From Sphingomonas insulae (GTDB lineage Bacteria > Pseudomonadota > Alphaproteobacteria > Sphingomonadales > Sphingomonadaceae): a stretch of DNA of 64,000 nucleotides. The position numbers were made by a program, and so were the translations under genes. This document shows, in pieces, positions 31,606 to 64,000 of this stretch (position 1 is its first letter; each line of letters opens with the position of its first letter). Where the stretch lies: contig NZ_CP048422.1 of the NCBI RefSeq assembly GCF_010450875.1, positions 1,891,001 to 1,955,000 on the forward strand, in the 5' to 3' direction. The notes below the pieces were generated by a model, which did not search any database, had not been told where the DNA came from, and worked only from the letters and a program-made list of their open reading frames with translations.

Positions 31606-31690
31606 GCCCCTGTGGCGAAATTGGTAGACGCATTCGACTCAAAATCGAACGCCGCAAGGCATGCTGGTTCGAGTCCGGCCAGGGGCACCA
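31606..31690 (+). tRNA. tRNA-Leu (anticodon CAA)
   Basis: GCCCCTG pairs with CAGGGGC for the acceptor stem, the anticodon stem TTCGA/TCGAA encloses loop CTCAAAA (anticodon CAA at 31640-31642), a variable arm follows, and the T-arm contains GGTTCGAGTCC. The 3' CCA is encoded. A tyrosine integrase begins 160 bases downstream, so the 3' end is the probable attachment core. Confidence 0.95.
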
Positions 31691-31701
31691 ATCGCCGATC
31701 T

Positions 31702-31850: not shown

Positions 31851-33134
31851 GTGCTGACGGATATCGCCTGCAAGAAAGCCCCGCCGAAGGCCAAGCCGTA
31901 CAAGCTCGCGGACGGGCAGGGGCTGTACCTGTACGTGACGCCGACCGGCTTCAAAAGCTGGCGCTGGAAGTATCGAATCGGCGGCAAAGAAAAGCGCCTG
32001 GTCTTCGGACCTTATCCCAGCATCACGCCAGCCAAGGCGCGGATGATGCGCGAGGATGCTTCGCGACAGTTGATCAACGGCGTGGATCCGGCGATCGACA
32101 AGGTGCAGCGGGCGGCTGCCGAGATCGCGCGAATGGGTGCGACCTTCAGGACGATTGCCGAGGATTGGCTGGAAAGCCAGGCTGCGATCTGGACCAAGGG
32201 GCACGCGAAGGTCGTGAAGGCGAGCCTGGAGCGCGACGTCTTTCCAACCTTGGGGCACCTGCCTATCGACACGATCACGACACCGATGGTGGCGAATCTC
32301 TTGCGCGCGGTCGAACAGCGCGGCGCGATCGAGACAGCGCATCGCGCTCGACAGCGGATATCGGACGTCTTCGCGATGGCGATCGGGCGGGGTATTGTGC
32401 AGCTCGATCCCTCGGCCGTCGCGCAGAAGGGCCTTTCCCCGATACTGCGGGGCAAGCAGCCTGCCGTACGGACGATCGAGGCGGCGCGGAACGTCCTGCG
32501 AAAGGTGGAAGAGCAGCCGGCGCACCCGCTGACGAAGCTTGCATCCCGACTGCTCGCGTTGACCGCGGTGCGATCGGGCGTGCTGCGCATGGCGGCGCCG
32601 CAGGAATTCGAGGGGCTCGACGGATCGGAGCCTCTCTGGCGTATCCCGGCTGCGAAAATGAAGCTCGTGCTGGAGCAGAAGAACGACGCGGCCTACGACT
32701 TCATCGTGCCGCTCTCTCGGCAGGCCGTGGAGGTCGTGAAGCTGGCGATGACGTTTTCGGGCAATGGCCCGGTGATCTTTCGCAGTATCCGTCATCCTCG
32801 ACGGCCGCTGAGCGACAGCACCATCAGCAAGGTGTATCGGGAAGCGGGCTTCACGGGCGTGCATGTGCCGCATGGATGGCGCAGCACGTTCTCAACGATC
32901 ATGAACGAAGCGCTGGAGCGGGAGTATCACAGCCGCGGGGGCACCGGTGTGGCCCCAGATCGGGCGATTGTAGAACTAATGCTGGCCCATGTGCTGGGCG
33001 GCGTCGAGGCGCATTACAACCGCGCCGCCTACATGCCCCGGCGCCGCGAGCTGGCGCAGCAATGGGCCGACATGCTGGTGCAGGATCTCGCGCCGCCCCG
33101 CAGTCTGCTGGAAGGGCTGCGACAGCACGGCTGA
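31851..33134 (+). CDS. int: P4-type tyrosine integrase
   Basis: A 427-residue site-specific recombinase. The N-terminal DUF4102-like arm-binding domain (YKLADGQGLYLYVTPTGFKSWRWKYR) is followed by a core-binding domain and a catalytic domain with R241 (LTAVRSG), H341-x-x-R344 (HGWRSTF), H380 and nucleophile Y389 (HYNR). It should integrate the element at the adjacent tRNA-Leu. The GTG start at 31851 fits the domain boundary. The insert RGGTGVAPD near residue 365 is family-typical. Confidence 0.93.
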   Translation: MLTDIACKKAPPKAKPYKLADGQGLYLYVTPTGFKSWRWKYRIGGKEKRLVFGPYPSITPAKARMMREDASRQLINGVDPAIDKVQRAAAEIARMGATFRTIAEDWLESQAAIWTKGHAKVVKASLERDVFPTLGHLPIDTITTPMVANLLRAVEQRGAIETAHRARQRISDVFAMAIGRGIVQLDPSAVAQKGLSPILRGKQPAVRTIEAARNVLRKVEEQPAHPLTKLASRLLALTAVRSGVLRMAAPQEFEGLDGSEPLWRIPAAKMKLVLEQKNDAAYDFIVPLSRQAVEVVKLAMTFSGNGPVIFRSIRHPRRPLSDSTISKVYREAGFTGVHVPHGWRSTFSTIMNEALEREYHSRGGTGVAPDRAIVELMLAHVLGGVEAHYNRAAYMPRRRELAQQWADMLVQDLAPPRSLLEGLRQHG

Positions 33135-34386: not shown

Positions 34387-34812
34387 ATGCAGACGCTCCG
34401 ACTCATCGACGTCCCTTTCGAGCTGATCCCCCGTGAGGCATCGCTCTTCCTGACGCGCACCCCCGCCGGCTTCCCCTCGCCGGCGCAGGACGACATGGAA
34501 GAGCCGATCGACCTCGGCGCCTATCTAATGGAACATCCGGCCGCGAGTTACCTGATGCGGATCGAGGGCCATTCCATGACGGGCGCCGCCATCAGCGACG
34601 GCGACCTGGTCGTCGTCAACCGCGCGAAGAAAGCGCGGCCCGGCTCGATCGTCGTGGCGCTGGTCCACGGCGAGCGCACCCTCAAACGGCTGCGCTTCAT
34701 CGACCGACGACACTGGCTGGTGGCCGAGGCCGAGGGCTATCCGCCCATCCTGGTCGACGAATATGTCGAAATCTGGGGCGTCGTCGTCGCGGTCGCGCGC
34801 CGGCTGTCGTGA
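34387..34812 (+). CDS. umuD: UmuD-like translesion polymerase subunit (S24 peptidase)
   Basis: A 141-residue LexA/UmuD self-cleaving protein. The cleavage site is A27-G28 in [12 protein letters not shown], and the catalytic dyad is S63 (EGHSM) and K100 (ERTLKRLR). RecA-stimulated cleavage would yield UmuD' that activates UmuC. ATG 34387 gives the standard UmuD length. Its stop overlaps the umuC GTG start, and an SOS box stands directly upstream. Confidence 0.93.
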
Positions 34813-36077
34813 CCACGCCCATCGCGCTGATCGACTGCAACAGCTATTACGTCTCGTGCGAGCGCGCCTTCGACGCCAGCCTGAAGGACGTACCCGTCGT
34901 CGTCCTGTCGAACAATGACGGATGCGTGATCGCCCGCTCGGCCGAATCGAAGGCCCTGGGCATCAAGATGGGCGATCCCATCCATCACCTGCGCGACATG
35001 GTGCGCCGACACGGCATCCGCGTTCTGTCGTCTAATTACACGCTGTACGGCGACATGCAGCGCCGCGTGATTGCCGCCTGCGAAGCCTTCGCGCGAGACT
35101 TCGAGATCTACTCGATCGACGAAACGTTCCTCGATTTAGCGGGGTTCGAAGACCGCGACCTGGTCGCGCATGCCCAGGCGATGCGGAACCAGGTGCAGCA
35201 ATGGACGACCATTCCGACCTGCGTCGGCATCGCCGGCACGAAGACGCTGGCGAAGCTGGCGAACCGCGCCGCCAAGACAGATCCGCGATTCGGCGGGGTG
35301 GCGGACCTGCGCGACGACGCCGTGCGTCGCAAAGTCATGGACGTGATTGAGGTCGGAGACGTCTGGGGGGTCGGCCGCGCGACGGCGACGAAGCTGCTGG
35401 ATCTCGACATCCGCACCGCCGCGGCCTTGCGCGATATGCCGATGAAACAAGCCCGCGCCGTCGGCACTGTCGTATTGGAGCGGCTGGTGGCCGAGCTGCG
35501 CGGGGAGGCCGCCAATGCGGTCGAGGCTATCGAGCCGCAGCGCAAGGGGATGGCCGTCACCCGATCATTCGGCACCCCCGTGACGCGGTTCGACCATCTC
35601 ATGGGTGCGTTGACCGAATATGCCATGCGCGCCGGCGAGAAATTGCGCGCGCACGGTCTCGTTGCCGGCCGACTTACCGCCTTCTTCCACACCAACCGCC
35701 ACCGCCCCGATCGGCCCCAATATGCCGCCTCGCGCGCCGTGACGCTGCATCCGATGACGGCCGACAGCCTGAAATTGATCGCCGCGGCGCGGCGCGGGGC
35801 CGAACGCGCATGGCGCGATGGCTATGCCTTCACCAAGGCCGGCGTTATTCTGGAAAACCTCGTTGCCTCAGAGCTGCGCCCACGCACGCTGTTCGAAGAG
35901 CCAGATGATCGCCGCGCACGGCTGATGTCAGCGCTGGATGAAATTAACGGTAGGTTTGGAAAATGGTCTGCGGTGACGGCATCGCAGGGCTTCAAACGTG
36001 AATGGAAGCTTCGTGCTGATAGCCGGTCGCCCGCATGGACTACGCGTCTAAGTGATTTGCCATTGGTCAAGACGTAG
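34809..36077 (+). CDS. umuC: Y-family DNA polymerase V catalytic subunit UmuC
   Basis: A 422-residue translesion polymerase. [18 protein letters not shown] supplies the first metal-binding Asp, [10 protein letters not shown] the acidic pair, followed by helix-hairpin-helix and little-finger domains ([23 protein letters not shown]) and a C-terminal UmuC tail. It forms Pol V with UmuD' for mutagenic bypass. The GTG start is coupled to umuD (GTGA). Carriage on the prophage means the phage brings inducible mutagenesis to its host. Confidence 0.94.
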
Positions 36078-36097: not shown

Positions 36098-37321
36098 TCA
36101 AGGCCAGCTCCTACTAACTGTGATGCCATGCTCTGTAACAAATAAATCTTCCTTAGACGGCTCTGATTTTTTTAGCTTGCTCGATGAAACAGCTTTCGAA
36201 AGAGCAACCTGAAATGATTCAAGGGCCTCACGGAGTTTCTCATCCAAAGAAAAGTCGACGGGATCTCGCATGCCAAGGCGGAACAATAATGACTCCGCTG
36301 TCATTGAGGATATGTCGGGCCCCTCCAATGAATCGTCAATCCATTGAGAAATCTCGAAATCGCTTGTCGCAGCCCTTCCTGATCTATCAAATTTTTTTTG
36401 CCTAGATTCTCGAGATTTTCTTTTTGCCGCTTCCAATTCTTTGTCGGTAAGGGTGTTGAGGCCGCGTTGCCCGATTGCAGTGTAGAGCGCAGTGACCAAT
36501 TTGCGCGTTTTCGCGTCCGCCTCTTCCCATATTAATGACGCATCCCGGGCGTAGGCTTTTCTAAGTCGCTTCTTTCTTTTGTTGGCCACCGTTGAAACCC
36601 AAAACCCGCTCGCTATCGATGCACCTAAAATAGCGATCGCTATGAACGGATATGTGATTGTTCTGAGCAATTGCGGCAATAATCCGCCGGACCAAGCCAC
36701 TGAAGCCGCGCTGGGCGAGGGTTTGGTCATATCTGTCCGACCGACCCCGATTTCACGTAGGCCCTCGACTTTTCCAAGGCTTTGGAAAGATAACTGGCCA
36801 TTCACTGGCCTCACAATCAAAAGATCAAATTGCAAATAATCAGCAGGATCAATGATTAAGCCGGGTGGCAACCTAAACGCCTCGCCCGAACGAACAGGTA
36901 TGCCCAACTTGCGGAGATGCTCGGATGTTGCGCCGCGCTCATATAGCCGAACAACTTCCCCACCCCGAACAGTAAACCCTAAGGGGTCTTGAGGTGTCGT
37001 GTTCCGAGAATTTATTCCGATTTCGCCATCATTTCTAAGCCTTAATCTTACCGCAACAAGGTCTCGTTTTGACTGTGTTAAATCCTGCGAATTGAGCTGC
37101 ACCGAAAGGCCTGGGACAGGTTGGCGAACGGCGAAAACCGGGATTTGGCTTACCACATCCAATTTTAATGACATTCTTTTCCCAAACGCGATCTCTGAGA
37201 CCGGTGGGAGGCCAATGATAAACCCAACTATGCCTAATAGTACACCAAGCGCAGAAGCGCCTTGGAACCAGGGGTTGCGAAGCAGTTGCCCTAACTGCGT
37301 GTTCTCATCTCTATCGTCCAT
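36098..37321 (-). CDS. Two-TM membrane protein of unknown function at the phage cargo position
   Basis: A 407-residue protein not recognised as any family. One transmembrane helix lies near residues 22-42 (ASALGVLLGIVGFIIGLPPV), then a roughly 180-residue domain, a second helix (FIAIAILGASIASGFW, about residues 230-248), a basic stretch KRKKRLRKAY, and a long charged cytoplasmic tail. The topology suggests an extracytoplasmic middle domain with a cytoplasmic effector or regulatory tail. Base composition is visibly richer in A/T than the neighbours. It lies between umuC and portal gene Q, where P2 carries tin and old, in the same orientation as those. ATG 37321 is preferred over 37378, which only adds a non-conserved leader. 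Confidence 0.75.
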   Translation of the reverse strand: MDDRDENTQLGQLLRNPWFQGASALGVLLGIVGFIIGLPPVSEIAFGKRMSLKLDVVSQIPVFAVRQPVPGLSVQLNSQDLTQSKRDLVAVRLRLRNDGEIGINSRNTTPQDPLGFTVRGGEVVRLYERGATSEHLRKLGIPVRSGEAFRLPPGLIIDPADYLQFDLLIVRPVNGQLSFQSLGKVEGLREIGVGRTDMTKPSPSAASVAWSGGLLPQLLRTITYPFIAIAILGASIASGFWVSTVANKRKKRLRKAYARDASLIWEEADAKTRKLVTALYTAIGQRGLNTLTDKELEAAKRKSRESRQKKFDRSGRAATSDFEISQWIDDSLEGPDISSMTAESLLFRLGMRDPVDFSLDEKLREALESFQVALSKAVSSSKLKKSEPSKEDLFVTEHGITVSRSWP

Positions 37322-37398
37322 CACTGCGTGATAAACATCAAGATACGCGCTTAGCGCAAGTTCAAAACGGCAAGTCACACAAAGCGTTATCTGCTTGT

Positions 37399-53413: not shown

Positions 53414-54586
53414 ATGAGCTTCCTGCACGGGATCAACGTCACCGAGGTGAAGAACACCAAGCGCGGCATCGCTACGATCGCCACCGCTGTCATCGGCCTG
53501 GTCGCAACCGCCCCCGACGCCGTCGCTGGCGCCTTCCCGCTCGACACGGCGGTTAAGGTCGACAATCTCGACGACGCCATCACCAAGGCCGGCGCAGGGG
53601 GCACACTGCGTGCAGCATTGCGCGCTATCGCCGGACAGGTGACCGCCCCCGTCGTCGTCGTGCGTGTGGCGCCCGGTGCCAACGCCGATGCGACGGCAAC
53701 CGCCTTGGTCGGCGCCGACGTCGCCGGCGTTAAGACGGGCATGCAGGCGCTGCTGACCGCGTCCGCGCAGCTCGATCTGCATCCCCGGATCATCGGCGCG
53801 CCGGGCCTCGAAAGTGAAAAGGTGACCAAGGGATTGGCTGCGGTCGGCAAGAAGCTGCGGGCGCACGTCTACGCACAGGCGCTTGGCCTCGACCGCGGCG
53901 AGGCGATCACGCACCGCGGCCTGTTCGCCGACGCGCGCGAACTGACCCTGCTGTGGCCAGGGGTGACCGCGCCCTATGGCGCCGACGGCGCCAGCATCCC
54001 CGTGCCGATCGCGGCGGTCGCCATGGGCGCGCGCGCCGCGATCGACCAGACGCAGGGCTGGCACAAGACGCTGTCGAATGTCGATCTCGCCGACATCGAC
54101 GGGCTGACCGCAGACGTCGCGTCCGACATTCAGGATCCCGACTGCGACGCCAACGTGTTGAATGCCTCGGGCCTGGTGACCGTCGTTCGCATGGGCGGCG
54201 CCCTGCGCTTCTGGGGCAACCGTACCTGCGCCGCGGCGGACAGCGATTTCGTCTTCGAAAGCGCCGCCCGCACGCAACAGATCCTCGCCGATACCGTCGC
54301 GCTGGGCCTGATCTGGGCAATTGACAAGCCGCTGCGCCCCAGCCTTGCCAAGGACATCGCCGAGCAGATCAACGAGAAATTCCGTGTCGAGACCCGCGCC
54401 GGCCGCCTGATGGGTGCTGTCGCCGTCTTCGACGCCAGCCGTAACCCCGACGCCAGCCTGAAGGCCGGGAAACTCGTGATCGGCTTCCGGTACACGCCCG
54501 TACCACCGCTCGAAGCGCTCTTCCTCGAGCAGGAGATCAGCGACGAATTCCTCGCCGACTTCACGTCGCTCGTCGTCGCGGCCTGA
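53414..54586 (+). CDS. Contractile tail sheath protein gpFI
   Basis: A 390-residue sheath subunit: FLHGINVTEVKNTKRGIATIATAVIGLVATAPDA at the N-terminus, PRIIGAPGLESEKVTKGL, FWGNRTCAAADSDFVFESAARTQQIL and the C-terminal IGFRYTPVPPLEALFLEQEISDEF. The sheath contracts on injection. Family length. Confidence 0.96.
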   Translation: MSFLHGINVTEVKNTKRGIATIATAVIGLVATAPDAVAGAFPLDTAVKVDNLDDAITKAGAGGTLRAALRAIAGQVTAPVVVVRVAPGANADATATALVGADVAGVKTGMQALLTASAQLDLHPRIIGAPGLESEKVTKGLAAVGKKLRAHVYAQALGLDRGEAITHRGLFADARELTLLWPGVTAPYGADGASIPVPIAAVAMGARAAIDQTQGWHKTLSNVDLADIDGLTADVASDIQDPDCDANVLNASGLVTVVRMGGALRFWGNRTCAAADSDFVFESAARTQQILADTVALGLIWAIDKPLRPSLAKDIAEQINEKFRVETRAGRLMGAVAVFDASRNPDASLKAGKLVIGFRYTPVPPLEALFLEQEISDEFLADFTSLVVAA

Positions 54587-54627
54587 TCGCGCCCGCCACC
54601 CCACCGACACTCCCAAGGACCGCCGCC

Positions 54628-55137
54628 ATGTCGATCGCCCCCAAGCTCAAGCAGATGATGATGTTCAACGACGGCGATGCCTTTATCGGCGAAACCGTCT
54701 CGGTCACGCCCCCCAAGCTTGTCCGTAAGCTGGAGGAATACCGCGCCGGCGGCATGAGCCGGCCGGTAAAGGTCGACATGGGCGGCGAGCCGCTGGAAAT
54801 GGAAGCGGTCTACGGCGGCCCCATGCGCGCCGTCCTGCGTCAATACGGCCAGCTTAACCTGTCGGGCGTGCAGCAGCGCTTCGTCGGCTCGTTCATCGAC
54901 GACGACACCGGTCAGCCCGTCGTGATCGAGATCGTCACCCGCGGCCGGCACGAAGAGATCGACATGGGCGAGATGAAGCCCGGCGAAGATAGCGAATTCA
55001 AGGTCAAGAGTCAGCTCGTCTACTTCAAGCTCTCGTGGAACGGCGTCGTCGAGATCGAGATCGACGTCCTCGGCATGATCGAGATCGTCGGTGGGGTCGA
55101 CCTGATGGCGCCGCATCGCGCCGCCCTGGGCCTTTGA
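54628..55137 (+). CDS. Tail tube protein gpFII
   Basis: A 169-residue P2 FII-type tube protein: MMMFNDGDAFIGETVSVTPPKLVRKLEEYRAGGM, EAVYGGPMRAVLRQYGQ and VVEIEIDVLGMIEIVGGVDLMA are diagnostic. Forms the inner DNA channel of the tail. Confidence 0.95.
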   Translation: MSIAPKLKQMMMFNDGDAFIGETVSVTPPKLVRKLEEYRAGGMSRPVKVDMGGEPLEMEAVYGGPMRAVLRQYGQLNLSGVQQRFVGSFIDDDTGQPVVIEIVTRGRHEEIDMGEMKPGEDSEFKVKSQLVYFKLSWNGVVEIEIDVLGMIEIVGGVDLMAPHRAALGL

Positions 55138-55143
55138 CGTAAG

Positions 55144-55161
55144 GGGCGCCCTCCGGCGCCC
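55144..55161 (+). terminator. Hairpin after the tail tube gene
   Basis: GGGCGCC-CTCC-GGCGCCC is a perfect 7-bp stem immediately after the FII stop, without a T-tract. Partial termination here would keep tube and sheath transcripts more abundant than E-T-U-D. Confidence 0.5.
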
Positions 55162-55217
55162 GCGCCGCAAACCCGCCGTCCTCCACCGCCCTCAGCTTCC
55201 CCGATAGGATTTTCACG

Positions 55218-55553
55218 ATGAGCGACCAGACCGACATGCCGACCCCTGTTGCCCCCGGCGACTTCACCCTCGAACACGACATCGTCGTCAACGGCAAGGT
55301 AGAATTGCCCGCGGGCACGACGATCCACGTGCGCAAGCCTATGGGTGGGGAGCTCCGCGGCGCCAATCTCGGTGGCCTCGTCCGCATGGATTACAACCAG
55401 GTCGCAATGGTCGCCCCCCGCGTCACCAGCCCGATCCTGCACGCGCACCTGTTCGAAGTGATGGATCCCGCCGACGTGACCCAATTCGCCGGGATCATCG
55501 TCGATTTTTTGCTGCCGACGTCGACGAAGGATGCGCTCTCCCAGAGCGCGTAG
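55218..55553 (+). CDS. Tail assembly protein gpE
   Basis: A 111-residue P2 gpE-type chaperone for tail assembly: DIVVNGKVELPAGTTIHVRKPMGGELRGANLGGL and the C-terminal MDPADVTQFAGIIVDFLL. Near its 3' end, codons 97-98 form T TTT TTG, where -1 slippage produces the longer E+E' protein. Binds tape measure in analogy with lambda gpG/gpGT. Confidence 0.92.
   Translation: MSDQTDMPTPVAPGDFTLEHDIVVNGKVELPAGTTIHVRKPMGGELRGANLGGLVRMDYNQVAMVAPRVTSPILHAHLFEVMDPADVTQFAGIIVDFLLPTSTKDALSQSA
55505..55511 (+). other. Programmed -1 frameshift site between E and E'
   Basis: T TTT TTG lies exactly in frame with gpE (X XXY YYZ). The -1 frame stays open from 55511 through the E' ATG to the TAG at 55681, so slippage yields a 154-residue E+E' fusion. 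P2 uses the same device in its tail gene operon. Confidence 0.85.
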
Positions 55554-55561
55554 AAGAGCCG

Positions 55562-55681
55562 ATGGCGGATATCGCCTTCGTCTTCCACTGGCCCCCCGAC
55601 GTCATGGACGCGTTGTCCGTGTCCGACCTGATGCAATGGCGCGAGCGCGCGGCGCGCCGTCACAACCCGGAAGGGAAATAG
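55562..55681 (+). CDS. GpE' (tail assembly frameshift extension)
   Basis: A 39-residue segment, MADIAFVFHWPPDVMDALSV followed by SDLMQWRERAARRHNPEGK, matching the small P2-type GpE' family with its FHW and W-R-E-R-A marks. Probably translated mainly as the C-terminal part of E+E' by -1 frameshifting; separate initiation at this ATG is possible. Confidence 0.85.
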   Translation: MADIAFVFHWPPDVMDALSVSDLMQWRERAARRHNPEGK

Positions 55682-55682
55682 C

Positions 55683-58418
55683 GTGTCATCCGACCGCAAT
55701 CTGCGCATCCGCATGCTTCTGGAGGCCGGCGACCGCGTCACCGGCCCGCTGCGCGATATCGCCGGCGGGTCGACCAAGGCCGCGCAGGCGCTGAAACTGA
55801 CGCGCGATCGGCTGAAGGAGATCAAGCAGGCGCAGGGCGACATCGACGGCTTTCGCGGCCTGAAGGCCGGGCTGCAATCGACCAATACCCAGCTCGACGC
55901 ATCCAAGGCGCGTGTCGCCGAGCTGCGCGGGGAGATCGCCGCCACCGACAAGCCGACGCAGGCGCTGACCCGCGCGCTCGCCAAGGCCGAACGCGAGGTG
56001 ACGACGCTGGAGGCGACCGAACGGCGCCAGACGCAGGCGTTGAGCGAAATGGGGCTGAAGCTCCACACCGCCGGCATCGACACAGAGGATCTGGCGCGTC
56101 ACCAGCGCCGCCTGCGTACCGAGGCCGTTCAGACCAACCGCGAGATCGCCGAACAGGAACGCCGCGTCGGCCAGCTCGCCGATCGCGAGCGCCGCATGGC
56201 GGCCGGCCGCGCCCGCTTCGCCAAGATCCAGGGCATGGCGACCGGCCTTGCCGCCGGCGGTGCCGCCGCGATCGGGACCGGCATGGCGATGGCCGCACCG
56301 CTGATCGGCAGCATCAAAGCCGCGCAGGAATACGAATCGGTCATGACCGATATCGGCCAGAAGGCCGATCTGTCGCGTGTCCAGGCGACCGCCCTGGGCA
56401 AGAACCTGCTCATCTCGGCCAAGGCCGCAAACCAGATGCCGGCGGACATGCAGGCCGGCGTCGACGCGCTCGCCGGGCTAGGCGCCAAGGTGCCCGACGC
56501 GGTCAAGATGATGACGCCGATCGGCCGAGCCGCCACGGCGTACAAGGCCGAGATCGCGGACCTGTCGAACGCTGCTTATGCGGCGACCGACAATTTGAAG
56601 GTGCCCGTATCGCAAACGCAGCGCATCATCGACATCATGGCGTCGGCCGGGAAATCGGGCGCATTCGAGATCAAAGACATGGCGCAATATTTTCCGGCGC
56701 TGACCGCAGCCTATCAGGGGTTGGGGCAGACCGGTACAGGCGCCGTGGCGGATCTCGCCGCGGGCCTTCAGATCGCGCGCAAGGGCGCCGGAGATGCGGC
56801 CAGCGCCGGCACCAACCTCGCCAACATCCTGCAGAAAATCGCCTCGCCCGCCACCAACAAGGCGTTCGAGAAGATGGGCGTGGATCTGCCCGCCGCGCTG
56901 AAGAAGGCGTATGCGGAGGGCAAGACACCGCTGGAGGCCATCGCCGAGCTGACCAACAAGACGCTGAAGGGCGATTTGTCGAAACTCGGCTACCTATTCG
57001 AAGACGCACAGGTGCAGCAGGGCCTGCGACCGCTGATCCAGAACATGGACGAATATCGCCGCATACGCGCCGAGGCGTCGAAGGCGGACGGCACGACCGA
57101 TCGCGACTTCGCCGAGCGCATGAAGGATTCGGCCGAGCAGACCAAGCAGCTCAAGATCAACGCGACGACGCTGGCGATCACCCTGGGCGCGCAGCTCCTG
57201 CCCACCGTCAATGCCGTCGCCACCAAGGCGAACGCCTTCGCAACGTGGATCGGCGACGTCGCCAACCGCTATCCGAACGCCACCAAGGCCATCGCGATCG
57301 GTGCCGCCGCGTTCGCAGCGCTCTTCCTCGTCCTGGGCGGCGGGGCGATCGTCATCGCCGGCTTGGTGGCGCCGTTCGCGGCTTTGTCCTTCGCGGCCGG
57401 CGCGCTCAACATCGCCATGCTGCCCCTGATCGGCATCACGCTGGGCGTCGTCGCCGGCGTCGTCGCGATCGGTGCCGCGGCGTACCTCATCTATCAGAAT
57501 TGGGGCGCCATCGGCGGCTTCTTCTCCGATATGTGGACCGGCATCGTCTCGCGGTTCACTGGCGCCGCCAGCGCGGTGACCGGCATCTTTCGCGGACTCT
57601 GGTCGGGCGTGAAGTCGATCTTCTCGATGAGCCTGCTCGACATCTATAAGAATCTGTTTTTCTTCACCGGCTATGCGCTCGGCACGCTGTTCCGGTTCGG
57701 CACGATTGCTTACAACTGGCTAACCGGAACGTTGCCTGGGCTATTGTCGTCCGGCTGGAGCGCTGCATGGGCGATGCTCACCGGCGCGATCAGCGCGTCA
57801 TGGAATTGGCTGACAACCCGATTCCCGGCGATGCTGGCGAGCGGGTGGAACATCGCCTGGGCGAGTTTCAAAGGCGCGATGCGCGCCGCGTTTATTACGT
57901 TGCCTGCGATGTTCTTCGACTTCGGCGTGATGATTATCCAGGGGCTTTGGAACGGCATCAAGAGCGCGCCCGGCCGGCTATGGAATGCCGGCGTAGCCAT
58001 GGCGCGCGCGCTGTCGGGCGGCTTCAAGAAGGCGAATGAAATTCAGTCGCCCAGCCGCGTTTTCATGCGGCTTGGCGGCCATGTCGTCGACGGCCTCACC
58101 AACGGCCTCGCGCGCCAGGAGGACGAGCCGGTGCGGCGCATGGACAGCCTCTCGAACCGCCTGTCCAAGGCAATCGTAACGGGCAGCGCGATCCCGGCAC
58201 TGGCAATGGGCGCGGTTCCCGCCGGTGCCACCACCGCTTCGCCGGCCGGCGCGGCGCCGGCGGCACGAACGTACAACATTACGATCAATCAGCTTCCAGG
58301 GCAGGACGGGCCGGCGTTGGCGCGCGCCGTTGCCGACGAGCTGGACCGCCGTGAGCGCGAGGCGGCGGCCCGCACACGATCCTCCTACGCCGACCCGGTC
58401 GATTGGGAGACCGTGTAA
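55683..58418 (+). CDS. Tail tape measure protein gpT
   Basis: A 911-residue tape measure that fixes tail length. The N-terminal 180 residues are coiled coil (KLTRDRLKEIKQAQGDIDGF, AKAEREVTTLEATERRQTQAL). A TP901/P2-type core follows (AAQEYESVMTDIGQKADLSRVQATALGKNL, ATDNLKVPVSQTQRIIDIMA), then hydrophobic helices around residues 540-600 and Trp-rich repeats (LLSSGWSAAWAMLTGAIS, MLASGWNIAWASFKGAM). The C-terminal SPSRVFMRLGGHVVDGL is family-typical. GTG start directly after E'. Confidence 0.93.
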   Translation: MSSDRNLRIRMLLEAGDRVTGPLRDIAGGSTKAAQALKLTRDRLKEIKQAQGDIDGFRGLKAGLQSTNTQLDASKARVAELRGEIAATDKPTQALTRALAKAEREVTTLEATERRQTQALSEMGLKLHTAGIDTEDLARHQRRLRTEAVQTNREIAEQERRVGQLADRERRMAAGRARFAKIQGMATGLAAGGAAAIGTGMAMAAPLIGSIKAAQEYESVMTDIGQKADLSRVQATALGKNLLISAKAANQMPADMQAGVDALAGLGAKVPDAVKMMTPIGRAATAYKAEIADLSNAAYAATDNLKVPVSQTQRIIDIMASAGKSGAFEIKDMAQYFPALTAAYQGLGQTGTGAVADLAAGLQIARKGAGDAASAGTNLANILQKIASPATNKAFEKMGVDLPAALKKAYAEGKTPLEAIAELTNKTLKGDLSKLGYLFEDAQVQQGLRPLIQNMDEYRRIRAEASKADGTTDRDFAERMKDSAEQTKQLKINATTLAITLGAQLLPTVNAVATKANAFATWIGDVANRYPNATKAIAIGAAAFAALFLVLGGGAIVIAGLVAPFAALSFAAGALNIAMLPLIGITLGVVAGVVAIGAAAYLIYQNWGAIGGFFSDMWTGIVSRFTGAASAVTGIFRGLWSGVKSIFSMSLLDIYKNLFFFTGYALGTLFRFGTIAYNWLTGTLPGLLSSGWSAAWAMLTGAISASWNWLTTRFPAMLASGWNIAWASFKGAMRAAFITLPAMFFDFGVMIIQGLWNGIKSAPGRLWNAGVAMARALSGGFKKANEIQSPSRVFMRLGGHVVDGLTNGLARQEDEPVRRMDSLSNRLSKAIVTGSAIPALAMGAVPAGATTASPAGAAPAARTYNITINQLPGQDGPALARAVADELDRREREAAARTRSSYADPVDWETV

Positions 58419-58804
58419 TGCTGCTCGCGCTTGGTATGTTCGTCTTTTCGATCGACACGCTGGCATTCGACGATCTCAATCGGCGGGCGAACTGGCGCCA
58501 CGCCACCTCAACCCGCGTCGGCACGCGCGACGCCACGCAATTCACTGGCCCCGGCGAAGAGACGATCTCGCTGCCCGGCTCGGTATTCCATGAGATCGCG
58601 GACGGCAGCGTGTCGATCGACGAACTGCGCGCCATGGCGAACACCGGCGACGCCTGGTCGTTGGTCGACGGGCGGGGTTACGTCTATGGCGCGTTCGTCA
58701 TCACCGGCATCGACGATCGCGGCAAGGGGTTCTTTCCGGACGGTACGCCCCGTCAGATCGACTTCTCGATCGAGCTGCTGCGCGTCGATCACGACGACGC
58801 ATGA
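58418..58804 (+). CDS. Tail protein gpU
   Basis: A 128-residue P2 gpU homologue: MLLALGMFVFSIDTLAFDDLNRRANWRHA and RQIDFSIELLRVDHDD. Acts in tail tip/baseplate assembly. The ATG overlaps the T stop (TAATG). Confidence 0.93.
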   Translation: MLLALGMFVFSIDTLAFDDLNRRANWRHATSTRVGTRDATQFTGPGEETISLPGSVFHEIADGSVSIDELRAMANTGDAWSLVDGRGYVYGAFVITGIDDRGKGFFPDGTPRQIDFSIELLRVDHDDA

Positions 58805-59835
58805 TCGCGAACATTCCCGCCATCCGCGTTCTGGTCGACGGCAAGGATATCACGCCGATGCTCGTCGGTAAGATACCGCAGCCGCACGGCCGCCCGCCGC
58901 GCTCGCGCCTCATCAGCCTCGGAATAACCGAAAAGCGGGGCGGGGAGGCCGACCAGCTCGACCTAGTGATCGACGATACCGACGGCGCCGTGCCGCTGCC
59001 ACGCGATGGCGCGCGGATCCACGTCTGGCTGGGATGGAAGCAGGGCAGCGACGTGACCGCGGGGCTGGTCGACAAGGGTTGGTTCATCGTCGACGAGGCG
59101 AACCATGCCGGTCCGCCCGACCTCATCACCGTCCGCGCCCGGGCGGCCGACTTCACCGGCGACATCAAGACGCGGCGCGAACAGGGCTGGCACGATACGA
59201 CGCTCGGCGCCATCGTGTCGGAGATCGCCGGCCGTAACCGCCTGACGGCGCGATGCGCGCCCGCCCTCGCCGGCATCGCGGTCACGGCAAAGGCCCAGAC
59301 CGGCGAAAGCGACCTCGCCTTCATCGCCCGGATCGGCCGCGAACATGGCGCCGTCGCCAAAGTTGTACGCGACGTCTTGGTCGTCTCGCCGATATCCGCC
59401 GGCGTGACGCCCACCGGGAAGTCGCTGGCTACCGTCACCATCGCCCGCCGCGACGGCGACAGCCACCAATTCAGCCGTCAAAAGCGCGAGGACGTGCCTG
59501 GCGTCACCGCGACATGGCACGATCGCGCCTCGGGCAAGCGACAGGAATTCGTCGCTGGCAAGAAGGATGGCGCCAAGCGCATCCGCAAGGTGTTCGGCAA
59601 CGAGCAGGACGCGGCCACCGCCGCCAACGCCGCCAAGGCGCGCGCCGGCCGCGAGCCTGTCTCACTGACCCTGACGCTCGCGCTCGGGCGGCCGGACGTC
59701 CACCCGGAAACGAAAGCCACGGTCACGGGGTATAAGGCGGTAATCGACGCGGTGGCGTGGCTCGTCGCCGAGGTGACGCACACCTACGGCGACCGGGGAT
59801 ATACGACAGGGCTTAGGTTAGAAGCGGCGAATTGA
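58801..59835 (+). CDS. Late control protein / baseplate hub gpD
   Basis: A 344-residue P2 gpD homologue (phage late control D): IRVLVDGKDITPML, LDLVIDDTDGAVPLPRDGARIHVWLGW, ARAADFTGDIKTRREQGWHDTTLGAIVSEIAGRN and the C-terminal WLVAEVTHTYGDRGYTTGLRLE. Together with gpV it builds the baseplate centre. Its last 23 bases overlap the convergent vsr gene. Confidence 0.94.
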   Translation: MIANIPAIRVLVDGKDITPMLVGKIPQPHGRPPRSRLISLGITEKRGGEADQLDLVIDDTDGAVPLPRDGARIHVWLGWKQGSDVTAGLVDKGWFIVDEANHAGPPDLITVRARAADFTGDIKTRREQGWHDTTLGAIVSEIAGRNRLTARCAPALAGIAVTAKAQTGESDLAFIARIGREHGAVAKVVRDVLVVSPISAGVTPTGKSLATVTIARRDGDSHQFSRQKREDVPGVTATWHDRASGKRQEFVAGKKDGAKRIRKVFGNEQDAATAANAAKARAGREPVSLTLTLALGRPDVHPETKATVTGYKAVIDAVAWLVAEVTHTYGDRGYTTGLRLEAAN

Positions 59836-60268
59836 TCGCCCTTTCGTCCCCACCGGTTATCATCGAATTGAGCTTTGTCTTAAGACACTCGGTGTCCCTT
59901 GTTTCACACTCCCATACGATCACGACGTTCCAACCCTTAGTGCGTAAGGCGTCCTCGTTACGCTGATCTCGGGAAACGTTAGCTGCGAATTTATCCTGCC
60001 AGAAATCCACCCTCGTTTTGGGCATGCTGGCTTTTTTACAATTCGAGTGCCGATGCCAAAAACAACCGTGTACGAATATGGCTGTCTTATATTTAGGCAT
60101 TACAATATCAGGGCGACCAGGAAGATCGCCACGATGCAGTCTAAATCGATAACCGAGGCTGTGCAGCGCCCTCCTGACTGCTATTTCCGGCTTCGTGTCC
60201 TTTCCTTTGACCTGCGCCATAAGGCGAGATCGCTGCGGACTAACGTCAGCGCGCTTCGCAGTATTCAC
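59813..60268 (-). CDS. vsr: Very short patch repair endonuclease Vsr
   Basis: A 151-residue Vsr-family nuclease. SRLMAQVKGKDTKPEIAVRRALHSLGYRFRLH, LPGRPDIVMPKYKTAIFVHGCFWHRH and the late GWNVVIVWECE are the family signature with the catalytic Asp, His and zinc ligands. Vsr normally nicks T:G mismatches arising from 5-methylcytosine deamination, which fits the adjacent C5-methyltransferase. GTG start shares one base with the dcm stop (TAGTG). It may alternatively serve as the restriction nuclease of the operon, since no other endonuclease is present. Confidence 0.93.
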   Translation of the reverse strand: MNTAKRADVSPQRSRLMAQVKGKDTKPEIAVRRALHSLGYRFRLHRGDLPGRPDIVMPKYKTAIFVHGCFWHRHSNCKKASMPKTRVDFWQDKFAANVSRDQRNEDALRTKGWNVVIVWECETRDTECLKTKLNSMITGGDERAINSPLLT

Positions 60269-61368
60269 TAAGCTGGATACGCCGCTAAGTGGCGGCGGAC
60301 TGAGCGTGCTATCACTCGACCCAAGGCAACTGGAACTGCATTGCCGATCAGTCGGCCGACGCTTCGCATATTGACCCTGTCACCCGGTCGGACGAATTCA
60401 TAGTCGCGAGGAAACGACTGCAGCATCGCACCCTCTCTTAGCGAAAGGGCGCGATCCTGTTCGGGATGACCGAACCGGCCGTTGCCGAAACCGTAGAATA
60501 GCGTTGTCATCGTCGGTGAAGGATCGTTCCAGGTCATGCGCCCATATACCGATCGGTACGTGCTACCCGATGCCGAACGGTGACAATCAGCAACCAGATC
60601 CTCTTCCCAGTCCGCCCAACTTCCGCCCGGCCGAGACGCGCGAATTCGCCTCAGATTGAGTTCCGAAAGCTTCGCTGATCTATGCAGTGGATCGCACGCA
60701 TCCACGCCACCTGCGGCAAGAGGCGGCAGATCGCCAATTTCGTCGCGTACCGAGCGGGCTTGAGCGAGAACCTCCGGTTGCTCCAGCTCGATCTTGCCGA
60801 GTTTCGACGCAAGCACAACCAAGCGATTACGCTTTTGCGGCAGCCCGTATTGAACCATTGGAACTATCCCTCGGAAAACATGATAGTTCTTGGCTTTCAA
60901 GCGCGCTTCGAAGTCACCTAAGAGTCTTCCTCCGTCGAAGTCGGCAAGCTTTGGAACGTTCTCCATTGAAACGACGTCCGGTTCGCATTCCGCAATCAGT
61001 CGAGAGAATTTTTCAACTAGCGCGTACTTGGCTTTCCCGCGTCCCTTTTGATTATAAGTCGAAAACGGTTGGCACGGCGCACATCCAACCAGCACCCGGC
61101 GACCGGATTCCGGGTACAATGAGCACAGGTCATTGGCTGTCAGCTCGTCCACGTCTCTCCTGATGAAACGAGACGCGTTGTTGTACTCGAAAGCGTACTC
61201 GCATGCCGGATCCAAGTCGATGCCCGCTGCAATGGAAAAGCCCTCATTGCGAAAGCCATGGGCAAGCCCACCCGCCCCGCAAAACAGATCGACCACCGAT
61301 GCCACCGCAGGCAAGGCAGGGCGAGGGGGCTCAGCGGAATTCGTTGGCGCAACCATAAGCCGATCCAT
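60268..61368 (-). CDS. C5-cytosine DNA methyltransferase
   Basis: A 366-residue Dcm-type enzyme: motif I VVDLFCGAGGLAHGF, motif IV GCAPCQPFSTY with the catalytic Cys, motif VI ENVPKL, motif VIII QKRNRLVVLA, a target-recognition region (about residues 210-310) and motif X RLIGNAVPVAL. The recognition sequence cannot be predicted. ATG 61368 begins eight bases after the upstream gene's stop; ATG 61356 is an alternative. Confidence 0.93.
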   Translation of the reverse strand: MDRLMVAPTNSAEPPRPALPAVASVVDLFCGAGGLAHGFRNEGFSIAAGIDLDPACEYAFEYNNASRFIRRDVDELTANDLCSLYPESGRRVLVGCAPCQPFSTYNQKGRGKAKYALVEKFSRLIAECEPDVVSMENVPKLADFDGGRLLGDFEARLKAKNYHVFRGIVPMVQYGLPQKRNRLVVLASKLGKIELEQPEVLAQARSVRDEIGDLPPLAAGGVDACDPLHRSAKLSELNLRRIRASRPGGSWADWEEDLVADCHRSASGSTYRSVYGRMTWNDPSPTMTTLFYGFGNGRFGHPEQDRALSLREGAMLQSFPRDYEFVRPGDRVNMRSVGRLIGNAVPVALGRVIARSVRRHLAAYPA

Positions 61369-61376
61369 TGCCGTGG

Positions 61377-62084
61377 TCAGGGATTCAACACAAGGCCGGT
61401 GGCCTCCTTGATGCCGTTGGTGACGTAGGCGTTTCGCTTGGCGCGGGAGTCGTTTTGAAGGTCCGCGACGATCTCGTCCATCACGTCTCGCCCCAAGATG
61501 GTCAGCACGAGGGTTAATAGCAAGCCGCACACGGTTGAGCTGCCGAGCGGGAACGTCGGACCTTTCGTGGAGCGCGGGAGTGCGCACGCGATCGGCACCC
61601 GATCAGGGGTCATGGAGTCGATCGGTTGAGCGTGATGAAACCGATGCTCGCGGCCTTGCCAACTCGGCGTTTCAAAACGGTAGCCCCAAAATTGCGGGAC
61701 ATGACCCTTCGGCGTGGTTTCCCCAGCGACCGAATGCCGGCCACCCAAGCGAAACATGCCGTAGAGAAAATGCGCCTCCGGTTGCCCCTCGAGGCGCCAG
61801 CTGCACCACAGAAACGAGTAGCCGTCATTGGTATAGCGGCTTGGTTCCAGCTCGATGAAATGATTGTCGGGAAATTGCTTGTTTAAGGAGCCTTTTTGAA
61901 GGTCGGCAAGCTCACGCTGACCCAGTCTGGCGTACTGATCGACGATCCGCCTCAGCTCGCCCGACTTTGGCTCATCTTTGGCGTGTTCCCCCGGAACCAT
62001 ACCTAGGTTGCGCCGATTCGTTTCGCCACCTCGCTGCGCGAGCTTCTGTAGGATGATTACCAGTCCCCTCGCTTCTTCCTCCAT
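61377..62084 (-). CDS. Unrecognised protein between receiver-domain and methyltransferase genes
   Basis: A 235-residue protein of no family I know. N-terminal helical part (EEEARGLVIILQKLAQRGGETNRRN, SGELRRIVDQYARLGQRELADLQ), a central beta-rich, aromatic domain (FIELEPSRYTNDGYSFLWCSWRLEG, HFLYGMFRLGG, QFWGYRFETPSWQGREHRFHHAQP) and a C-terminal hydrophobic helix (TVCGLLLTLVLTILGRDVMD) before a charged end. The helix could be a membrane anchor or a buried helix. Eight-base gaps on both sides place it firmly in the operon. ATG 62084 is chosen; the frame upstream of it is shadow. Confidence 0.75.
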   Translation of the reverse strand: MEEEARGLVIILQKLAQRGGETNRRNLGMVPGEHAKDEPKSGELRRIVDQYARLGQRELADLQKGSLNKQFPDNHFIELEPSRYTNDGYSFLWCSWRLEGQPEAHFLYGMFRLGGRHSVAGETTPKGHVPQFWGYRFETPSWQGREHRFHHAQPIDSMTPDRVPIACALPRSTKGPTFPLGSSTVCGLLLTLVLTILGRDVMDEIVADLQNDSRAKRNAYVTNGIKEATGLVLNP

Positions 62085-62092
62085 GGCCAGAC

Positions 62093-63298
62093 CTATACCG
62101 AGGCGAGGCGCCGGCTCGGGCCATAGCTGATGTCCGGATGAAAGAAGGCTAGGTATCTGACGTCGAATTGATTGTGAAAGCCCGCCCGGAACGGCTTGGC
62201 TGCGTCGAACGGTATGAAGATTGAGGCGTCCTCTGCGAACACGACGTCGGCGAATTTGGCCGGGTCGTATTCGGAGCGTCCCTTGCGAACGACGTCGAGC
62301 TTGAGGAGGTCTGGCCACCAGAACGCATCCTGCCCGAGCCAACCCGCATGCCCTTGGAATTTCGCACCGGCGACGTCATCGATCAACGCTTCCGCTCCGA
62401 ATACGATCGCTCGATTCCACGTCGCGATATCCAAAGGATCGCCCAACTCCGGACGCATCAGGAATGGCATGCGCTGTAGCAAGTGGGGAACATCCACTAG
62501 AACATTTTGTGGTCCCACCACCGCCCGCGAATACCACTTGGACAAACGCGCTACTGTCGCCGCCATAGCCCTTCGCTTATTGGACTCTATCGCTCGTGCG
62601 ACCTCCTTATGTTCCGTCGACTGCATCAGGAATTTTCGAACGCTTAGCTTTTGCAAATCATCCGCGTTCGTCACCTGGTTCGACAAAAAGCCGACCGCCT
62701 CATCGCTCAAAGCCGAGACATGTCGCTCCGGAAATTGCAATACATCAAGTATAGGCTGGTCGAATGCATCGAGTAGGCCGGACGTAAGATTTCCGCGGTT
62801 GTCGATCACCTTTCCGATATCCGGCCAAGTCCAAGGAGCGAACGTCGCGCCATCCCTTTGTCCGCCCCAGAGAGTTTGCGAACCAATCAGAGACGAGTCG
62901 ATGTTGAGATCGGCGAAGCTTTCCAAGTGACCCCGCATCTCAAGGTCGAACATGGCCTTATCGACGAACTGATTCATGACGACCACGAATGCGCAATCGG
63001 AATAAAGCCTAGCCATCCGGGCAAAGCCCTCGCCCGTATGCCGCGCATTCTGCGCATCAATCTCCAAGAGATCGTAGTCGACGACGAGAATGTCGGCTTG
63101 GTCGAATTGCGTTTCGACTTTGTCGGAGCTGCTATTCTCCGAAGTAGGGATACGCGTCAGCAGATTTCGAAATTGGGCGCGAGCATCCTCTATGCGCTCC
63201 ACGTCTACGCCTGAACCAACGGCCTTGGCTATTTGCTTCTGCCAGTCCGCCGCAAGGCTGGGATTGTCGTCGCAAACAGCGATGCGCTTAATGCTCAT
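62093..63298 (-). CDS. Receiver-domain protein with long unrecognised C-terminal region
   Basis: A 401-residue protein. The N-terminal 125 residues look like a response-regulator receiver: IAVCDDNPS (D10, D11), then ADILVVDYDLL with D74 as probable phosphoacceptor, and FVVVMNQF where a Ser/Thr would be expected. The C-terminal 270 residues match no output domain I recognise; no HTH is evident. Segments AWTWPDIGKVIDNRG, YSRAVVGPQNVLVDVPHLLQRMPFL and FAEDASIFIPFDAAKPF are notable. It overlaps the kinase gene by four bases. Confidence 0.8.
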   Translation of the reverse strand: MSIKRIAVCDDNPSLAADWQKQIAKAVGSGVDVERIEDARAQFRNLLTRIPTSENSSSDKVETQFDQADILVVDYDLLEIDAQNARHTGEGFARMARLYSDCAFVVVMNQFVDKAMFDLEMRGHLESFADLNIDSSLIGSQTLWGGQRDGATFAPWTWPDIGKVIDNRGNLTSGLLDAFDQPILDVLQFPERHVSALSDEAVGFLSNQVTNADDLQKLSVRKFLMQSTEHKEVARAIESNKRRAMAATVARLSKWYSRAVVGPQNVLVDVPHLLQRMPFLMRPELGDPLDIATWNRAIVFGAEALIDDVAGAKFQGHAGWLGQDAFWWPDLLKLDVVRKGRSEYDPAKFADVVFAEDASIFIPFDAAKPFRAGFHNQFDVRYLAFFHPDISYGPSRRLASV

Positions 63299-64000
63299 TC
63301 ACCGCTACTCCAGCTAATTTGAAATGTCGTCGGACCGCCGTCTTCTACGAATCTGACCTGGCATCCGCGCAAGCTTGCGATCATCCGCACGATCGTCAAA
63401 CCAAGACCCATACCGCCCAATCCTAAAGCCGAGCGTTCGGACGACGCCACCTGCCGCCGCCTGAATGGCTCGAAGTAGGTGTGTGAGCTGGGAACGTCTA
63501 TGGGAAGTCCGTTGTTGCTGATGCGCAGCCAACTACTGCGTCCTGTCCGCCCGAACCGGAAGGCAATTCGGGGCTCGTCTATATCAAGCATTGCATTCGC
63601 TGCGTTAACCAACACGTTTTGCAATAGAGCATGCCAATCGGCGAATGTCGCTGGTGGGAAATAGACATGACCGGGAATATCTATTTCCGTGGCTACGCGC
63701 GGCATGAGTGGCTCGGTCGCCCGTATCACCTCCTCGACGACGCTACGGACCTGCAACGCTTCCACGACATCACGGTCTTCCTGGCTTAGCATCGGAGCAA
63801 AGATGCGCCGAGTGGCTTCCAACCGATTGAGCCAAGTGTCGATGTCGCCTGCGACACCCGAAACTTCCGGATCGTCGATCCGGGCCGCAATGGATTTCAG
63901 GCGGCGGACCAATTGACGCCCGAGCCGTATCTCCTTCTTGTTCTCATGTTCCAGGGCGAGGGCGGCCATGCCAGTCGATGCGAGCGAGCCGAGTAGCGAT
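63295..64000 (-). CDS. Histidine-kinase-like ATPase, partial at right edge
   Basis: At least 235 residues; the frame is still open at the right edge. A helical dimerisation-like segment has the H-box candidate MAALALEHENKKEIRL, and a HATPase_c domain follows: N-box LLQNVLVNAANAMLD, G1-like ISNNGLPID and G2 LGLGGMGLGLTIVRMIASL. The G1 Asp appears replaced by Asn. No membrane segment is visible in the part present. First visible gene of the operon running to vsr, and presumably the partner of the receiver-domain protein. Confidence 0.82.
   Translation of the reverse strand, partial: SLLGSLASTGMAALALEHENKKEIRLGRQLVRRLKSIAARIDDPEVSGVAGDIDTWLNRLEATRRIFAPMLSQEDRDVVEALQVRSVVEEVIRATEPLMPRVATEIDIPGHVYFPPATFADWHALLQNVLVNAANAMLDIDEPRIAFRFGRTGRSSWLRISNNGLPIDVPSSHTYFEPFRRRQVASSERSALGLGGMGLGLTIVRMIASLRGCQVRFVEDGGPTTFQISWSSGE

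Follow-up and report, generated by a model that had tools for sequence, protein, structure and literature searches.

A prophage-borne operon of Sphingomonas insulae joining a kinase, a receiver and protein U to a C5-cytosine methylase and Vsr: a candidate immune system

Related systems and the Sphingomonas operon

Kinase and receiver domains named HEF_HK and Response_reg_2 were described by Bellieny-Rabelo et al. (2021; PMC8011034), with 91.6% linkage in 644 regions, C5-methylases near such kinases and receivers, and Vsr in 20 genera. The authors proposed control of restriction-modification (R-M) systems as a possibility and left the role of such kinases open. In the paraMORC R-M systems (Iyer et al. 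2008; PMC2292703) an N-terminal GHKL ATPase is linked to a methylase and Vsr, and in VcSduA (Shedu type I-D), a GHKL-nuclease protein, the GHKL ATPase is needed for phage defence (PMC12137116). C5-methylases are known for HgiDII and BbrUII (PMC5867850), and Detocs is a three-gene defence system built on two-component logic (PMC11249213). Here we describe a five-gene operon of Sphingomonas insulae encoding a kinase-like protein, a receiver, a protein designated U, a C5-cytosine DNA methyltransferase and the mismatch endonuclease Vsr, located at the right-hand end of a 64,000-nucleotide stretch (the window; NZ_CP048422.1, positions 1,891,001 to 1,955,000). The chances are about even that it is a prophage-carried immune system, licensed by methylation and gated by a phospho-relay.

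All five genes (coordinates in Table 1) lie on the minus strand, and the one-directional packing noticed in the original prediction is borne out: the kinase stop overlaps the receiver start by 4 bases (63295-63298), 8-base gaps occur at both the receiver-U and the U-methylase junctions, and methylase and Vsr overlap by 1 base (60268), the whole operon measuring less than 6 kb. It is also more A/T-rich than the phage genes, as had been noticed, with a G+C content of 0.574 versus 0.658 at prophage positions 31677-59812 and 0.662 at positions 65554-70858. Third-position G+C, a rough guide only because outside the operon the listing mostly retained frames above 0.6, is 0.54-0.66 in the four operon frames listed (that of U is not among them) and 0.82-0.88 in six tail frames (53414-59835). 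The window edge cuts the kinase gene; rightward extension of the assembly, a check proposed together with the prediction, completes it (63295-65553 in window numbering; L002:4796-7054, minus strand).

The complete kinase carries a MutL/MORC-like HATPase_c_3 domain at its N-terminal end (72.6 bits) and a histidine-kinase module with HATPase_c at its C-terminal end (61.1 bits), both above cut-off. In an alignment of 26 kinases the N-terminal GHKL ATPase motifs are intact, the ATP-site and phospho-histidine residues are conserved, and the histidine of the H-box (H536-E537) is invariant, as is R425 in a conserved RDRL stretch; the sequence-model search found no S5 model match in the kinase. HEF_HK (PF19191) reaches 13.5 bits versus a cut-off of 24.1. 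The NF050001 model (BbrUII/HgiDII) matches residues 29-204 with 83.6 bits, the family cut-off being 550 bits, and the REase_II and BbrUII models match the N-terminus over the ATPase stretch only. The receiver possesses a receiver-like fold at about residues 2-164 with conserved acidic residues, followed by a conserved C-terminal region without a Pfam match. The methylase gives a PF00145 match of 165 bits, the only one in the genome.

The operon resembles the HEF_HK / Response_reg_2 association in the N-terminal HATPase_c_3, the H-box histidine followed by an acidic residue, the C-terminal HATPase_c, the adjacent receiver-like protein, and the C5-methylase and Vsr nearby. The original prediction had matched the set to no named defence system; PADLOC indeed gives no match for receiver and U, but the association with C5-methylases and Vsr was already present in PMC8011034. 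The agreement with this described model is half complete: kinase architecture and R-M neighbours correspond, whereas HEF_HK stays below its cut-off and PF19192 matches neither the receiver of the window nor, except for one match at E 0.064, the 45 relatives scanned. Four of the 385 genomes covered in the class carry PF19192, one of the loci (L041) having broken frames. In the three readable loci the kinases comprise 979-993 amino acids (aa; the 979-aa frame begins at a contig edge) and the receivers 525-647 aa, compared to 401 aa here, with no U-profile match and no U-sized gene directly after the receiver. A profile comparison of the two receiver groups yielded a probability of 0.8%, with three sequences only on the PF19192 side. 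Since the receiver falls outside PF19192 and U is absent from the three readable loci, the operon is, on sequence comparison, a distinct variant or separate branch of the association published in 2021 and not a member by the PF19192 definition.

The operon recalls paraMORC in combining an N-terminal GHKL ATPase, its motifs intact, with a methylase and Vsr, and a GHKL ATPase at the N-terminus is shared with VcSduA; unlike both, the operon possesses a histidine-kinase module and a receiver, while none of its five proteins matches DUF4263 (at E 1) or a helicase model. In Escherichia phage PhiR44_1 (L031, 5992-9040) a gene annotated paraMORC3 adjoins a Dcm gene, whose product resembles the methylase of the operon (phmmer, 9e-110); we label this locus another GHKL-plus-methylase cargo. 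The kinase contains an N-terminal GHKL stretch similar to BbrUII/HgiDII, but it lies far below the cut-off of that family and its C-terminal part is a histidine kinase. With Detocs the operon has in common the three-gene, two-component logic; however, the PNP effector domain, the sole Detocs effector type looked for, was not found in the five operon proteins, and the glossary description of Detocs in PMC11249213 mentions no methylase.

Conservation of the kinase-receiver-U trio

A single profile scan of genome contigs with the receiver alignment yielded 20 loci, in which the receiver is present by construction. The original prediction would have been refuted by genes that never co-occur elsewhere, yet a kinase homologue adjoins the receiver in all 20 loci, a C5-methylase homologue lies within the stretch in all 20 (with 18 of the 19 measured sharing the strand of the trio), and U follows the receiver in 19 according to position, length and invariant residues (9 by phmmer at E 1e-3). 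Vsr is present in 14 loci; in L016 and L024 it forms one fused frame with the methylase. In L013, L018, L019, L020, L023 and L024 the methylase is assigned from weak phmmer scores (E 9e-12 to 1e-6); L013, the one examined with Pfam, was confirmed. The order kinase-receiver-U is constant, and the methylase is located upstream or downstream of the trio depending on the locus. Kinase adjacency and methylase presence in every locus, compared with matches in none of 17 control stretches around the phage tail gene D (gpD; see below), point to an association beyond chance. Pairwise sequence identities co-vary within the trio (0.62-0.75). Co-variation with the methylase is lower but significant (0.43-0.55), and there is none with Vsr (0.10-0.16). 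These values derive from 20, 19 and 13 loci, respectively, in a set comprising the operon itself, the viral locus L037 and the genome loci other than L021 and L024 (18 of 20).

The operon group is rare in the order, where it occurs in one of 396 sampled genomes, namely its own, and the three-gene form is found in assemblies that carry the labels of several bacterial phyla; metagenome bins account for many of these assemblies. In L015, L018, L019 and L023 an Eco57I-type methylase on the opposite strand adjoins the trio beside the C5-methylase. A gene with a Mrr_cat restriction-endonuclease domain (Pfam) follows U in L007 (9962-10720), and the protein after U in L008 (9946-10725) is similar to it by eye only. 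L021 and L027 are decayed copies with broken kinase and receiver frames.

Among viral contigs the receiver alignment retrieved three loci: the operon itself, L037, in which all five genes are present (receiver identity 53%), and L038, a decayed copy with a receiver, a kinase remnant and, by eye, a transposase-like gene at the place expected for U. The kinase alignment retrieved 19 loci, including the operon and L037. Kinase, receiver and U are present by profile in three of the 17 others (L081-L083); five (L085-L089) possess a kinase, a gene of 349-410 aa and a third gene of 231-260 aa, the latter two unmatched by the operon profiles; eight (L090-L097) combine the kinase with a longer second gene (414-599 aa) and have no U-sized gene directly after it (the contig of L096 is cut soon after the second gene, and L091 has Vsr there); and one (L084) is a cut contig. 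Assigned by gene sizes and not by PF19192, L090-L097 may represent a phage version of the published two-gene form. Homologues of gpD are located at a distance of a few kb in L037, L081, L082 and L083 (in L083 the frame has an unrelated start), and five phage contigs carry the set near gpD if the prophage of the window is included. The kinase search at E 1e-20 gave seven plasmid records. In five plasmid records (L026-L030, with broken frames in L027) the kinase is followed by a receiver-sized gene and a third gene, which matches the U profile in L026 and L027 and not in L028-L030.

Residues R136, E138, H147, H151, Q153 and P176 of U are invariant across 41 aligned rows and include the pattern RxE...HxxxHxQ. 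U has no Pfam match, and its AlphaFold2 model (pTM, predicted template modelling score, 0.89) has no clear fold match in the PDB. The third genes of L085-L089 and of plasmids L028-L030, unmatched by the U profile, display an (H/R)x(D/E) ... HxQ-like pattern by eye, with a different last residue in L088; they possibly belong to one very divergent family.

Proposed mechanism and alternative readings

A signal-gated restriction or modification module on a phage, as originally predicted, fits the evidence and stays the best reading. The linkage of methylase and Vsr to the signalling genes holds; however, it had already been published, and kinase and receiver are not an ordinary two-component pair, the kinase bearing a MutL/MORC-like ATPase in sensor position and forming a conserved trio with receiver and U. 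From gene content, conserved kinase and receiver residues, trio conservation, the steady methylase linkage and the phage cargo position we infer defence, unmethylated DNA as the trigger, a phosphate direction from H536 to D74, and U and/or the receiver C-terminus as effector. In this scheme the C5-methylase would mark host and prophage DNA, and Vsr would repair T:G mismatches arising from 5-methylcytosine deamination at the methylated sites. The N-terminal MutL/MORC-type ATPase of the kinase would act as a DNA- or complex-gripping sensor; on unmarked, invading DNA the kinase would autophosphorylate at H536 and pass the phosphate to D74 of the receiver, whose C-terminal region, with U, would then form or free an effector, so that the invader DNA is destroyed or the cell is stopped. 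Tentatively, U may itself be an effector, novel both in fold and in active site (Arg-x-Glu ... His-x3-His-x-Gln), switched on together with the receiver C-terminal domain by phosphate relay from a kinase with a MutL/MORC-type DNA-clamp sensor. If true, a two-component phospho-signal, in addition to sequence recognition, would license the attack of this restriction system on unmethylated DNA.

Several observations weigh against the immune-system reading. Apart from Vsr, no restriction endonuclease was found above the curated cut-off in the five operon proteins, and U has no recognised catalytic fold, although an unrecognised restriction endonuclease could reside in U or the receiver C-terminus. 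The best Foldseek match of the receiver has an E-value of 0.0021; Asn109 replaces the usual Thr/Ser and no invariant Lys is seen at the usual receiver position, which leaves classical phosphotransfer unproven. Vsr is missing in six of the 20 genome loci, including one on a cut contig, and lacks co-variation with the trio, U was not found in L024, and host-lineage relatedness may contribute to the co-variation. The negative control is small (17 stretches), and searches of an open-access library, covering titles and starts of abstracts, found no experiment in which a system of this kind was tested for phage defence.

An ordinary member of the HEF_HK / Response_reg_2 R-M association, new only in host and phage location, would show the kinase architecture, adjacent receiver and C5-methylase and Vsr neighbours found here (PMC8011034), but this is unlikely in view of the HEF_HK score, the PF19192 results, the receiver-group comparison and the three readable PF19192 loci with longer kinases and receivers and without U (the fourth being broken). 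The genes could instead encode a sensory regulator of DNA methylation, the pair controlling the methylase or host genes epigenetically with no invader attacked: the five genes have the close packing of a single transcription unit, which lies behind a same-strand CI-like repressor gene, and R-M control was proposed as a possibility in PMC8011034. We consider this quite unlikely, as neither the receiver C-terminus nor U matches a DNA-binding family, and the trio occurs with a C5-methylase on either side, sometimes with the extra Eco57I-type methylase, in several phyla; the varied methylase placement and the spread over phyla are more easily reconciled with an effector module than with a promoter-specific regulator. 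Phages commonly carry stand-alone methylases, and together with the independent variation of Vsr this favours a role of methylase and Vsr in protecting the phage itself from host restriction, the kinase, receiver and U being separate neighbouring cargo; the constant presence of the C5-methylase with the trio, on either side and nearly always on the same strand, makes such an arrangement very improbable.

If the operon is indeed a phospho-relay-gated immune system, a single immune decision would combine phosphotransfer signalling with DNA methylation, and its sensor would be a relative of mismatch-repair and MORC ATPases. The compact operon would make the role of such kinases, left open in 2021, testable, and the three-gene form with its unrecognised third protein is present in assemblies labelled with several phyla, on plasmids and close to gpD in the five phage contigs.

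Prophage setting and cargo slot

The operon lies inside a prophage labelled P2-like by us from its gene set, with a length of about 39.2 kb deduced from the 15-bp repeat of the tRNA end that recurs beyond the window (Table 1). The predicted phage cargo position is confirmed by this repeat, by the integrase at tRNA-Leu and by recognised portal, terminase, capsid, sheath, tape measure and gpD genes. The operon is situated between gpD and the CI-like repressor gene, shares the strand of the latter and begins 81 bases after it. At its other end Vsr and gpD overlap tail to tail by 23 bases (59813-59835), with no spacer between cargo and tail gene. An IMG/VR viral contig of 38,905 bp (L036) has an identical receiver and the same operon.

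Table 1. Features of the operon and its prophage in window numbering
Feature	Position	Strand	Remark
Left attachment repeat, tRNA-Leu 3' end	31677..31691	+	15 bp; second copy 70844-70858, beyond window
Prophage integrase adjoining tRNA-Leu	31851..33134	+	
Phage tail gene D (gpD)	58801..59835	+	marks cargo slot
Vsr mismatch endonuclease, 151 aa	59813..60268	-	
C5-cytosine DNA methyltransferase, 366 aa	60268..61368	-	
Protein U, 235 aa, third core component	61377..62084	-	
Receiver protein, 401 aa	62093..63298	-	
Kinase-like protein, C-terminal part within window	63295..64000	-	full gene runs to 65553, 752 aa

Within the family, 17 of the 149 genomes contain gpD relatives, the own genome included, and all 17 gpD-bearing stretches (5.9-18 kb) of the 16 other genomes served as control set. 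In ten stretches a slot of 2.3-4.8 kb separates gpD from a following homologue of the early gene L002:8268-8807; the remaining seven have no such early gene within the stretch examined. All ten slots contain a minus-strand helix-turn-helix, repressor-like gene and otherwise differing content (by eye, mechanical open frames), and the repressor of the window's prophage is matched in one slot only (L066) at E 1e-4. At E 1e-4 the 17 stretches yield no match to the five operon proteins; from this and the differing slot contents we read the region after gpD as a cargo slot.

A second A/T-rich gene of the prophage (36098-37378, minus strand, 426 aa, third-position G+C 0.48) matches a PHROG family of unknown function (E 2.5e-10) and is probably another cargo gene. 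Near the integrase, a DNA-polymerase gene (34809-36077, plus strand) is indicated by a PHROG match and appears UmuC-like by eye.
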